Assembly (NCBI GenBank): GCA_013153405.1
Contig: JAADEM010000150.1
Span: 1 to 60,326 of the forward strand
From: Chlorobiota bacterium
GTDB taxonomy: Bacteria > Bacteroidota > Bacteroidia > Bacteroidales > Marinilabiliaceae
Length of the DNA: 60,326 bases
Reading direction: 5' to 3'
The notes under the pieces were generated by a model. The model did no database searches, had not been told where the DNA came from, and saw nothing but the letters and a program-made list of their open reading frames with translations. The translations under genes and the position numbers were made by a program. This document shows, in pieces, positions 36,008 through 50,355 of this stretch (its first letter is position 1; each line of letters opens with the position of its first letter).

Positions 36008-36385
36008 CTATTTTGAAACATACAATATTCTTGGCGGTTCTTTAAGTTCTTCCATTTCAACCCCCATCTTTTTCATTCGTCGAAGCACCTCACTGGGCTT
36101 GCTCATCGACATCAGCTCAGAGGATGTTGTCACAGCTTCAAACCTCAGCTCTTTAACCTCCTCGTTAAGGGAATGCAGTTCTTTCTGCATTCTCTCAACC
36201 TCATGATGGTTCATTATATAAAAAAAGCCAAGCACTGCGAGGTAAAAAACAAACAGCATCTGCTTACGAAAAAATTTCCGGGTAACAAGACGTCCGGTAA
36301 AAATATCTTTCACCGAAATTCCTTTAAGCTCTTCCATCTCATCGTAATGGCTCTCAAATTCGTTTCCTTTGAGCAGATCTTTCAT
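36008..36385 (-). CDS. ftsL: FtsL-like division protein
   Basis: Small 125-residue bitopic protein. About 40 polar cytoplasmic residues precede a membrane helix (about 43-60), then a coiled-coil-prone stretch rich in Glu, Leu and Lys (VERMQKELHSLNEEVKEL) and a short tail. Size, topology and position between rsmH and ftsI match FtsL, which forms a complex with FtsQ and FtsB. Direct sequence identity to FtsL is not visible, so the call is contextual. The start overlaps the rsmH stop by four bases. Confidence 0.75.
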   Translation of the reverse strand: MKDLLKGNEFESHYDEMEELKGISVKDIFTGRLVTRKFFRKQMLFVFYLAVLGFFYIMNHHEVERMQKELHSLNEEVKELRFEAVTTSSELMSMSKPSEVLRRMKKMGVEMEELKEPPRILYVSK

Positions 36386-37287
36386 CTTCTTTCAGCTATT
36401 CTCAATTTCGCACTGCGTGCCCTGTTATTTTTTTCAATCTCTTCATCCGACGGAACAATAACTTTTCGGTTAACTGCCTTGAGCGGAACATCCGCGTTAC
36501 CAAACATGTCGGTTTCAATTTGTGACTTACGACAATCACCTGTTTTTATGAAATTTTTCACAAGCCTGTCTTCCAGGCTATGATATGAAATTATTGACAC
36601 TCTTCCCCCTTTTTTCAATACAGACGGAATCTGCATAAGAGTTTCTTCAAGCACTGTCATTTCTCCGTTCACCTCTATTCTGAGTGCCTGAAACACCTTT
36701 GCAAGGTATTTCGACACATCTTTTTTAGGAGCCGTCTTTTCAGCTACCTGTTTGAGATCGTCGGTAGTTTCAAAAAAACGGCTATGCCTGAATGCTGCAA
36801 TTTCTTTCACAAGACGCCCGGCATTCTTTATTTCACCGTAATTATAAAAGATATTTTTAAGGTCCTTTTCCTCATAGTTATTAAGAACGGATGCTGCATC
36901 TTTTCCTGCCTTACCGTTCATTCTCATATCAAGAGCGCCACTGTGCCGGAAAGAAAAACCACGCGAAGCATCATCAAAATGATGTGACGACACGCCAAGG
37001 TCTCCCAGAATACCATCAACCTGTTCTATTCCCAGATATCTCAGAAAATTCGTAAGATATCTGAAATTATGCCTGACAAAAACCAGCCTGTTATCATCCG
37101 GCCTGTTTCTGTACGCATCCTCATCCTGGTCAAAAACAACAAGTTTGCCATTTCCCAGCCGGCTCAGGATTTCACGACTGTGCCCTCCTCCTCCGAAAGT
37201 CAGGTCTACATATATTCCGCCTTCCCTGACATCAAGCCCATCAACCGACTCCTTTAGCAAAACAGGTATGTGATATTGCTCATTCAT
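36382..37287 (-). CDS. rsmH: 16S rRNA (cytosine1402-N4)-methyltransferase
   Basis: SAM-dependent methylation of C1402 in 16S rRNA (MraW). About 301 residues starting MNEQYHIPVLLKES. VDLTFGGGGHSREIL is the SAM-binding motif near 28-42, GDLGVSSHHFD the second signature, and ISYHSLEDRLVK the C-terminal signature. The ATG at 37287 is preferred; a TTG at 37293 would overlap the mraZ stop. A conserved companion of mraZ at the head of dcw clusters. Confidence 0.95.
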   Translation of the reverse strand: MNEQYHIPVLLKESVDGLDVREGGIYVDLTFGGGGHSREILSRLGNGKLVVFDQDEDAYRNRPDDNRLVFVRHNFRYLTNFLRYLGIEQVDGILGDLGVSSHHFDDASRGFSFRHSGALDMRMNGKAGKDAASVLNNYEEKDLKNIFYNYGEIKNAGRLVKEIAAFRHSRFFETTDDLKQVAEKTAPKKDVSKYLAKVFQALRIEVNGEMTVLEETLMQIPSVLKKGGRVSIISYHSLEDRLVKNFIKTGDCRKSQIETDMFGNADVPLKAVNRKVIVPSDEEIEKNNRARSAKLRIAERR

Positions 37288-37289
37288 AA

Positions 37290-37757
37290 TCAATCAGTCA
37301 GCTTCAAATCATCTTTCCCCAGAATATCTTCGGCAAGCCTTCCAAGCTCGTCAGGATCAACCTCACTTTCATGATATGCTTTACTGTTCCATATCTCGAT
37401 ATTACTATCCACTCCTACCAGCACCACCTCCTGTTCCGCACCTATCTCGTCCTTAAGCTTTCGTGGTATCAGAATACGACCGTTTCCATCAAAACTCACT
37501 TCAGACAAGCCCCTGAAAAAAGCCCTCATAAACTTATTATGATCCCTGTTATACGGGTTTATTTTGGCCCTTATCTTCTCAAGCTCCTTTTCCCACTGGT
37601 TGAACGGAGTTAACACCAGACAGTTTTCATAAAGATTTTTACGCACCACAAAGCGGTCACTTCCATTGCCTACCATCGTTTTTTTGAACGGTGCCGGAAG
37701 TACTATACGCCCCTTTGCGTCAAGCTTACATGTAAAATCTCCGATGAATGCTGCCAT
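37290..37757 (-). CDS. mraZ: Transcriptional regulator MraZ
   Basis: AbrB-like DNA-binding protein that represses its own operon in E. coli. The 155 residues are two tandem SpoVT/AbrB-like halves, with KLDAKGRIVLPAPFK (about 11-25) and SFDGNGRILIPRKLK (about 88-102) as the matching DNA-contacting segments. It is the first gene of the division cluster. Four TGG boxes at exact 10-base spacing lie 39-78 bases upstream and are the likely target. Confidence 0.96.
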   Translation of the reverse strand: MAAFIGDFTCKLDAKGRIVLPAPFKKTMVGNGSDRFVVRKNLYENCLVLTPFNQWEKELEKIRAKINPYNRDHNKFMRAFFRGLSEVSFDGNGRILIPRKLKDEIGAEQEVVLVGVDSNIEIWNSKAYHESEVDPDELGRLAEDILGKDDLKLTD

Positions 37758-37771
37758 TTTCTTAAATCTAT

Positions 37772-37799
37772 CAAAAGGTAAAAGTAATAATTTTTCAAA
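37772..37799 (-). promoter_or_regulatory. Candidate promoter of the dcw cluster
   Basis: On the minus strand TTTG (37799-37796), 15 bases, then TACCTTTT (37780-37773) followed by G: a near match to TAnnTTTG with one extra T. Spacing is shorter than usual. The -33 overlaps the last MraZ box, as expected for repression by occlusion. Confidence 0.45.
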
Positions 37800-37834
37800 C
37801 CACTATCAACCATTTTACACCACTTTATTCCACC
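37796..37834 (-). promoter_or_regulatory. Putative MraZ operator: four TGG boxes at 10-bp spacing
   Basis: Minus-strand pentamers GTGGA, GTGGT, ATGGT and GTGGT have their TGG cores at 37832-37830, 37822-37820, 37812-37810 and 37802-37800. The cores are exactly 10 bases apart, separated by AT-rich 5-base spacers. Known MraZ targets are direct TGGGN repeats separated by five bases, which this closely mimics. The array lies 43 bases upstream of the mraZ ATG. Confidence 0.8.
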
Positions 37835-37859
37835 TTGTTAATAACTTTTTCCCTAAAGG

Positions 37860-38084: not shown

Positions 38085-38104
38085 ATACCTGTATAATCAG
38101 GTAT
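38085..38104. repeat. Short inverted repeat between glsA and the mini-ORF
   Basis: ATACCTG, six-base AT loop, CAGGTAT: a perfect 7-bp palindrome. It could be an operator or a weak terminator (TTTTATTT follows on the plus strand). It lies 108 bases upstream of glsA. Confidence 0.5.
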
Positions 38105-38211: not shown

Positions 38212-39048
38212 ATGACAAAAAAGGAAGTTCATAATAATGACAAATTAATAGACCTGAACAATGTTTTTAAAAGCAAAAACCCCAGGCTTTACAAATACTT
38301 CCCCAAGTTCATCATAAGCATCCTGAAGCGTATAATCCATCAGGATGCCATAAACGATTTCATAAACAGAAACAGGCACAAACACGGATTGGACTTTGCC
38401 CGTGCCACAGCTGATGAGTTTTTGAAAGATTACAATAGTTATGGTCTTGATGAGATTCCGGACGGACGCTATATCTTTGCCTCGAATCATCCGCTCGGAG
38501 GTCTCGACGGTATGGTATTCTTAACTCTGGTAGGAGAAAGGTTTCCCAATGTACTTTTCCCAGTAAACGACATATTGCTAAACATTGACAATATGAAAGA
38601 TCATTTTGTGCCTATCAACAAACACGGTTCACAAGGACGGGAAGCTGCAAAAAAGCTTGAAGATGCCTATGCTTCCGACAATCAGATACTGATGTTTCCG
38701 GCCGGACTAGTAAGCCGAAAAATAAACGGTAAAATAACAGATTTGGAATGGAAGCGCAATTTCATAAAAAAAGCCATTAAGCACAAACGCGACATTGTTC
38801 CCGTTCACATCACAGGTCGAAACAGCAATTTCTTTTACAACCTTGCCAATCTTAGAAAAAAACTTGGAATAAAAGCAAACATAGAGATGCTGTTTTTACC
38901 CGATGAAATGTTCAAGACAAAATCAAAACACATCACTGTTAGATTTGGCAAACCCGTTAAGTGGGAAGAGCTGAACAACGGTGACAAACCTGAAAAGTGG
39001 GCACAAAAAATAAAGGAACTCTCTTACAACTTGGCAAAAAACAATTAA
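38212..39048 (+). CDS. glsA: O-acyltransferase of the glycine-lipid pathway (GlsA-like)
   Basis: PlsC-superfamily acyltransferase of 278 residues. It probably adds the second, ester-linked acyl chain to an N-acyl glycine, the step assigned to GlsA in Bacteroides. The acceptor/catalytic motif is SNHPLGGLD (His93, Asp99) with five residues between His and Asp, where classical PlsC proteins have four. FPAGLVSR lies near 163 and VPVHITGRNSNFFYN near 195. Only weakly hydrophobic, so a peripheral inner-membrane protein is likely. The partner N-acyltransferase glsB starts 23 bases after the stop. A hemolysin-type lysophospholipid acyltransferase role is the alternative. Confidence 0.8.
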   Translation: MTKKEVHNNDKLIDLNNVFKSKNPRLYKYFPKFIISILKRIIHQDAINDFINRNRHKHGLDFARATADEFLKDYNSYGLDEIPDGRYIFASNHPLGGLDGMVFLTLVGERFPNVLFPVNDILLNIDNMKDHFVPINKHGSQGREAAKKLEDAYASDNQILMFPAGLVSRKINGKITDLEWKRNFIKKAIKHKRDIVPVHITGRNSNFFYNLANLRKKLGIKANIEMLFLPDEMFKTKSKHITVRFGKPVKWEELNNGDKPEKWAQKIKELSYNLAKNN

Positions 39049-49650: not shown

Positions 49651-50355
49651 CTATACAACAGTTACATGCTCATTAATCACATCCGACTCAACCAACCCGT
49701 CCATTAACCTTATTATTCTGTGAGCATGAAGTGCAATATCTTCTTCGTGAGTTACAATGATTACGGTATTTCCTTCTTTATGAATCTCATCAAAGAGTCT
49801 CATAATATCAAGTGATGTCCTTGAGTCAAGATTTCCGGTTGGTTCATCAGCGAGAATTATTGACGGGTTATTAACAAGAGCTCTTGCAACTGCAACCCTT
49901 TGACGCTGCCCTCCCGAAAGTTCGTTGGGTTTATGAGTCATTCTGGTTTCAAGACCTACACTGATTAAAACATCTTTTGCCCGCTGTATTCTTTCAGGCT
50001 TTGGCATTCCGGCATAAATCAACGGAAGCTCAACATTCTCAAGAGCAGTATTTCTGGGCAGAAGATTAAATGTCTGAAATACAAAACCAATCTCTTTGTT
50101 TCGAACTGCAGCCAGTGATTCATCATCCATATGACTAACATCCGTACCGTTAAGTATATATTTACCTGCTGTAGGAGTATCAAGTGCACCAATCAGATTC
50201 ATAAGTGTGGACTTACCCGAACCCGAAGGTCCCATTATTGCCACATATTCTCCTTTATGTATAGTTACAGACACACCACGAAGAGCCTTAACCGTTTGTG
50301 TTCCTACCGTATAATATTTTTTAAGACCGGTTATTTCGATAAGCTTCGAATCCAT
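49651..50355 (-). CDS. ABC transporter ATPase of the MacB/LolD/FtsE type
   Basis: 234-residue ATPase with Walker [10 protein letters not shown] (42-50), Q-loop QTFNLLPR, signature [15 protein letters not shown] and Walker [13 protein letters not shown], all intact. The sequence class is that of MacB, LolD and FtsE, which drive extrusion of lipoproteins, peptides or macrolides through an FtsX/MacB-like permease. No permease is adjacent, so the partner must be encoded elsewhere. It lies between a methyltransferase and clc, on the same strand. Confidence 0.9.

Follow-up and report, generated by a model that had tools for sequence, protein, structure and literature searches.

The window analysed here, a 60,326-nucleotide stretch of a Chlorobiota bacterium genome, carries on its minus strand mraZ, the first gene of the dcw cluster, followed by rsmH/mraW as the next gene of a presumed operon (Table 1). 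The mraZ product gave two PF02381 matches above the cut-off, matched PDB chains named MraZ with E-values from 2.8e-14 to 1.1e-10, and is 77-79% identical to the MraZ proteins of named Marinilabiliaceae relatives, from which the class sampled below is taken to be Bacteroidia. Its residues D13, R17, D90, and R94 are invariant among 18 sequences (K15 was counted as invariant too), and we take the two D..R motifs of MraZ to be its DNA-binding motifs. Three properties of a MraZ operator thus occur together at this locus: a site directly upstream of the mraZ gene that heads the division cluster, four repeats in 10-bp steps within that site, and a cognate MraZ with both D..R motifs. A long gap separates mraZ from the divergent gene at 38212, and it contains a terminator-like hairpin followed by T-rich sequence (positions 38085-38104 of the window, plus strand).

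Table 1. Genes and candidate regulatory features at the mraZ locus (window coordinates)
Feature	Sequence or form	Position	Strand	Remarks
GTTWTYAACA element	GTTATTAACA	37836..37845	minus	abuts box 4; 3 bp before the box 4 TGG
MraZ box 4	GTGGA	37829..37833	minus	sequence read; farthest from mraZ
MraZ box 3	GTGGT	37819..37823	minus	sequence read
MraZ box 2	ATGGT	37809..37813	minus	sequence read
MraZ box 1	GTGGT	37799..37803	minus	sequence read; nearest to mraZ
Likely -33 element	TTG	37807..37809	minus	flanked by boxes 1 and 2; -7 element follows at 20 nt
Likely -7 element	TACTTTTA, form TAnnTTT	37779..37786	minus	a second TAnnTTT match starts at 37780
mraZ		37290..37757	minus	ORF, 155 aa; first gene of the dcw cluster
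rsmH/mraW		36382..37293	minus	ORF, identity recognised by eye; next gene of the presumed operon

The initial annotation had placed four TGG cores on the minus strand at 37832, 37822, 37812, and 37802, and on re-reading their 10-bp steps proved exact. The boxes are separated by the spacers ATAAA, GTAAA, and TGATA, and the last TGG is followed by 42 bases before the mraZ start codon (ATG at 37757). By chance, 0.36 occurrences of three TGGs in 10-bp steps would be expected in the window; two are observed, both within the mraZ array, and 2 of 100 shuffles reached that number. In the 3.78-Mb genome the four-TGG pattern matches only once, at the mraZ array, so that a search for a wider MraZ regulon with this pattern gave no further exact match. 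Since the backwards control pattern equally has one match, the four-TGG motif alone is not extremely rare genome-wide, and the weight of the observation rests on the place of the array directly before mraZ and on its conservation rather than on the rarity of the motif.

Conservation was examined in three sets of regions upstream of mraZ. Among 61 relatives, 54 had a MraZ match, and the upstream regions of 50 of these were read (G039, G041, G045, and G049 were left out). A further 106 distinct regions from the class were pooled from two sources, a class sample in which 274 of 296 genomes had a MraZ match and the class members of a phylum sample (186 of 198); they were picked from the listed matches, with at least one per family plus the top-scoring loci, a choice that over-represents some families. 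Twenty regions, one per family (L164-L183), came from other classes of the phylum. At least three TGGs at exact 10-bp steps were found in 40 of the 50 relatives and 83 of the 106 further class members, the remaining 10 and 23 having fewer. In the other classes six of the 20 regions have at least three phased TGGs and the remaining 14 have two; at one locus, L175, the longest run, which the script selected, probably does not correspond to the true array. The phasing across Bacteroidia that the initial annotation had proposed to look for is therefore kept where mraZ is kept. None of 137 mraZ upstream regions contained a run of three TGGs at a period of 7, 8, 9, 11, 12, or 13, and on their opposite strand no such run was found at any period. 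Between congeners (four genomes, six pairs) the array is 82-92% identical and the 60 bp on its upstream side only 28-43%, and box 4 is degenerate in several relatives (for example, AAGTGT). That the TGGs are a chance product of an AT-rich promoter would agree with the single genome-wide match of the backwards control, but retention of the 10-bp phasing in 123 of 156 class regions, and of no other period, leaves this explanation with a negligible probability.

The bases around the cores were counted in the regions with at least two phased TGGs, which omits 3 of 50, 7 of 106, and 0 of 20 regions and makes TGG 100% by construction. In the class regions the base before TGG is G in 92-96% of the boxes, with A/T-rich sequence further 5'. 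After TGG, T leads in the window's class (62-63% of the boxes, against 25-28% with G and 8-12% with A), whereas the 20 regions from other classes have G in 67% and T in 30%. The proposal that TGGT/TGGA defines a Bacteroidota form of the site thus holds as far as T is preferred in the window's class; for the phylum it fails, because G prevails in the other classes, and T after TGG is a class-level preference. The array in the window accordingly represents the general MraZ box, in a class that favours T.

The TTG and TAnnTTT sequences downstream of box 2 are taken here as the -33 and -7 elements of a Bacteroidota-type promoter. Measured from the first base of the last TGG, a TAnnTTT follows at 14-16 bp in 43 of 47 upstream regions of the window's order or family and in 63 of 99 from the class (there at 14-15 bp); where several matched, the one nearest to 15.5 bp was taken, a choice that favours values of 14-16 bp. 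TTG stands exactly 20 nt ahead of TAnnTTT in 29 of 39 order or family regions. The wider class shows no dominant TTG position (the commonest gap accounts for only 7 of 67 regions), and the overlap with the -33 element is therefore well supported only in the window's order. There the description of the array as abutting the promoter is an understatement, boxes 1 and 2 flanking the likely -33 TTG. In 13 of the 20 regions from other classes a TTGAC begins 29-41 bp before the first box, which places these arrays near the start site, as in the available published descriptions of Escherichia coli and Burkholderia; the array in the window does not have this placement downstream of -10 and over the start site. 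Classes of the phylum thus differ in where the predicted operator sits on the promoter, upstream of -7 in the window's class and near the start in most of the regions from other classes.

The initial annotation missed a further feature, the GTTWTYAACA element adjoining the array. In the class regions it stands 3-4 bp ahead of the first box or is set back by an additional 10-bp step. A full 10/10 match was found in 19 of 47 order or family regions, 39 of 65 class regions, and none of the 20 from other classes, with about no full match in mononucleotide shuffles; on the opposite strand 5 of the 65 class regions also have one. The relaxed form TTWTYMACA occurs in register in 19 of 47 order or family and 60 of 99 class regions (79 of 146) and in 0 of 20 from other classes. 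Its distance from the array is constant, whereas that from the -7 box takes values of about 38 or 48 bp, varying with the number of box positions. Additional TTWTCMACA copies lie farther upstream in a set of 78 sequences, 7 on the same strand versus 0.82 in dinucleotide shuffles and 5 on the other strand versus 0.72. A single GTTWTYAACAA is not specific by itself, being common in the bacterium's own genome (59 sites versus 41 for the backwards control). The window holds a second exact GTTWTYAACA at 49867-49876 on the plus strand, for which chance can account, since two matches arise in 36 of 100 shuffles.

Related pairs of the form TTWTCAACA-N9..12-TTWTCAACA were found at 88 places in 75 of 296 class genomes, versus about 10 matches, counted manually, for the backwards control. 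The genes behind them, named by eye and by tblastn to one representative each, could be assigned at 63 places: HU at 30, transketolase at 24, purH at 5, parA at 2, and clpC and a DNA polymerase III exonuclease-like gene at one each. The pair is located 90-107 bp ahead of the gene start in 29 of the 30 HU cases. Tandem pairs about 20 bp apart appear as a class-wide motif at loci L224-L309 (for example, L249, L226, and L267). With looser spacing, a search of 14 genomes found pairs beside HU, dnaB, and dnaN, the last in opposite orientation in two genomes, and between ftsA and ftsZ. Pairs of TTATCCACA occur in 27 of the 296 genomes; downstream of their 30 places lie parA (4), mraZ (1), and dnaB (1), and the other 24 are unassigned, although one of them falls between ftsA and ftsZ while three adjoin nadA. 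At one locus (L312, genome G132), roughly 150 bp ahead of mraZ, a TTATCCACA pair is accompanied by a third copy on the opposite strand.

The regulator of the GTTWTYAACA element may be DnaA, so that the replication initiator and MraZ would meet at the division promoter, and we give this a serious though less than even chance. The DnaA box TTATCCACA resembles the window element, and some class members carry the canonical form there: 4 of the 60 class cases have TTATCCACA or TTTTCCACA in the register of the mraZ element. The positions of TTATCCACA pairs before parA, dnaB, and mraZ, and of TTWTCAACA pairs before parA, point in the same direction, as do the putative origins upstream of nadA, where three genomes have eight TTATCCACA clustered within 300 bp. 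One nadA upstream region (G215) mixes TTATCCACA with TTATCAACA, mixed or A-type boxes stand upstream of the gene in G004 and G218 also, and in 18 stretches of 20 kb boxes are 6.6-fold enriched upstream of nadA compared with the remaining sequence. In addition, TTATCAACA is listed as a predicted DnaA box of a cyanobacterium in the available part of one report (PMC4674748). Several observations speak against DnaA. The window carries TTATTAACA in place of the DnaA 9-mer TTATNCACA, and position 6, which is C in TTATCCACA, is A in 19 of 19 order or family elements and 55 of 60 class elements (74 of 79). The genome G312 has five clustered TTATCCACA and yet TTATTAACA at mraZ, and 7 of the 18 nadA upstream regions are without any box. 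HU, transketolase, and purH would be unusual targets, since they are not typical of DnaA. Moreover, the accessible text on E. coli DnaA describes a preference for pairs 2-3 bp apart (PMC11317965), whereas the copy at mraZ is usually single. Given the A-for-C change at position 6, the G312 cluster, and the box-less nadA regions, DnaA was rejected as a settled identity.

The element may instead belong to another global regulator of growth genes (HU, transketolase, purH, parA, and mraZ), to which we assign nearly an even chance. The excess of TTWTCAACA pairs over the backwards control and the 63 of 88 places before HU, transketolase, purH, parA, clpC, or the exonuclease-like gene favour such a regulator; on the other hand, parA and mraZ are common to C-type and A-type sites, which favours one regulator for both. 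The bacterium's own DnaA reads GNKDHATVLHA at the place of the E. coli motif GGRDHTTVLHA, a lead only. No GTTWTYAACA-like element was seen at a constant place in the dnaA upstream regions, and a recurring TTTTTCACA before dnaA was rejected as evidence for DnaA, as the sequence around it is T-rich and resembles a promoter. In several families (L381, L383, L384; L310/L386; L390; L405) 9-mers similar to DnaA boxes cluster immediately upstream of nadA and possibly mark the replication origin. Within the window's family, G004 has three TTATYAACA upstream of nadA, with the origin there only presumed; a nadA gene was not found in the window's own genome.

As for the array itself, it is very probably an operator of MraZ. 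This reading of the initial annotation is backed by the conserved phasing and, taken with the outcome for the TGGT/TGGA form, leaves that annotation partly supported overall. From the boxes, their phasing, the cognate MraZ, and the overlap with the promoter we infer MraZ binding, contact by the ring, and the sign of regulation, and consider it highly probable that the predicted operator of the dcw cluster is read by a MraZ ring that autorepresses mraZ and the genes behind it. The ring, an AbrB-like oligomer, would read three to four GTGG boxes, which, being one helical turn apart, all lie on one face of the DNA. Bound at boxes 1 and 2, MraZ would exclude RNA polymerase from the promoter, because these boxes flank the -33 TTG, and the outcome would be autorepression of mraZ and the downstream genes. 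Such blocking of the polymerase is the likeliest mode of action for the predicted operator. In agreement with repression, the available accounts describe raised mraW, MG_223, and ftsZ transcripts upon mraZ deletion in Mycoplasma genitalium and report E. coli MraZ as a repressor likewise. However, repression by the same contact cannot be assumed, because the E. coli and Burkholderia sites sit downstream of -10, and a site upstream of -7 may instead activate. MraZ bound to the array would then act mainly as an activator, the ring and a partner at GTTWTYAACA recruiting the polymerase. The position of both the array and the element upstream of -7, the position of the array near the likely start in 13 of 20 other-class regions, and the partial account linking MraZ overexpression with raised FtsZ in M. 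gallisepticum are consistent with activation. Nevertheless, the likely -33 TTG flanked by boxes 1 and 2 in the window's order and the repression by M. genitalium MraZ make it unlikely.

A broader model can be put forward tentatively, at somewhat less than even probability: the division promoter of this class would be a two-input switch. One input would be MraZ, on phased GTGG boxes that cover the -33 element; the other, on an element fixed to the edge of the array, would be a regulator linked to replication, either DnaA with the altered box TTWTYAACA or another protein. If so, the same regulator would control HU, transketolase, purH, and parA, and in some lineages dnaB and ftsZ, and chromosome replication and growth would be coupled to division. 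This makes the coupling of replication, growth, and division in these bacteria directly testable. The kind of MraZ operator is already known, and what is unusual here is its position in the promoter and the adjoining second conserved signal. The analysis extends the predicted operator to a whole bacterial class with a different promoter type, suggests that its place in the promoter has shifted from one sister class to another, and points to a further conserved input to the division promoter, one also present before HU, transketolase, and purH.

Among the open-licence papers listed for these topics, we recognised none that describes this operator or the GTTWTYAACA element in Bacteroidota; a LexA site is reported at a mraZ homologue from gut metagenomes in the available part of one study (PMC3998124). 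Comparison with the MraZ sites known from other bacteria shows a common plan with lineage-specific changes. Upstream of mraZ, E. coli K-12 has, by our reading, GTGGG AAATT GTGGG GCAAA GTGGG, direct repeats with a GTGG core in 10-bp steps as in the window; however, all three consecutive E. coli cores are TGGG, a form seen in none of the four window cores and not required by the Mollicutes form. In Burkholderia cenocepacia, according to the available text of PMC7761207, MraZ binds four 7-nt repeats with 3-nt spacers before mraZ, so that the number of repeats and the 10-bp step (7 + 3 nt) agree with the window. The same text places the E. coli sites downstream of -10 and the Burkholderia site over the transcription start, whereas the window array lies upstream of -7 and overlaps the likely -33 element; it also describes a GTG motif as conserved in Bacillus subtilis, E. 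coli, and mycoplasmas. The mraZ promoter repeats of Mollicutes, given as AAAGTG[T/G] in the accessible part of PMC8475190, are likewise direct repeats with an A-rich GTG core, but the second G of GTGG, nearly constant in the window's group, distinguishes the latter, and the lineage and promoter type differ as well.
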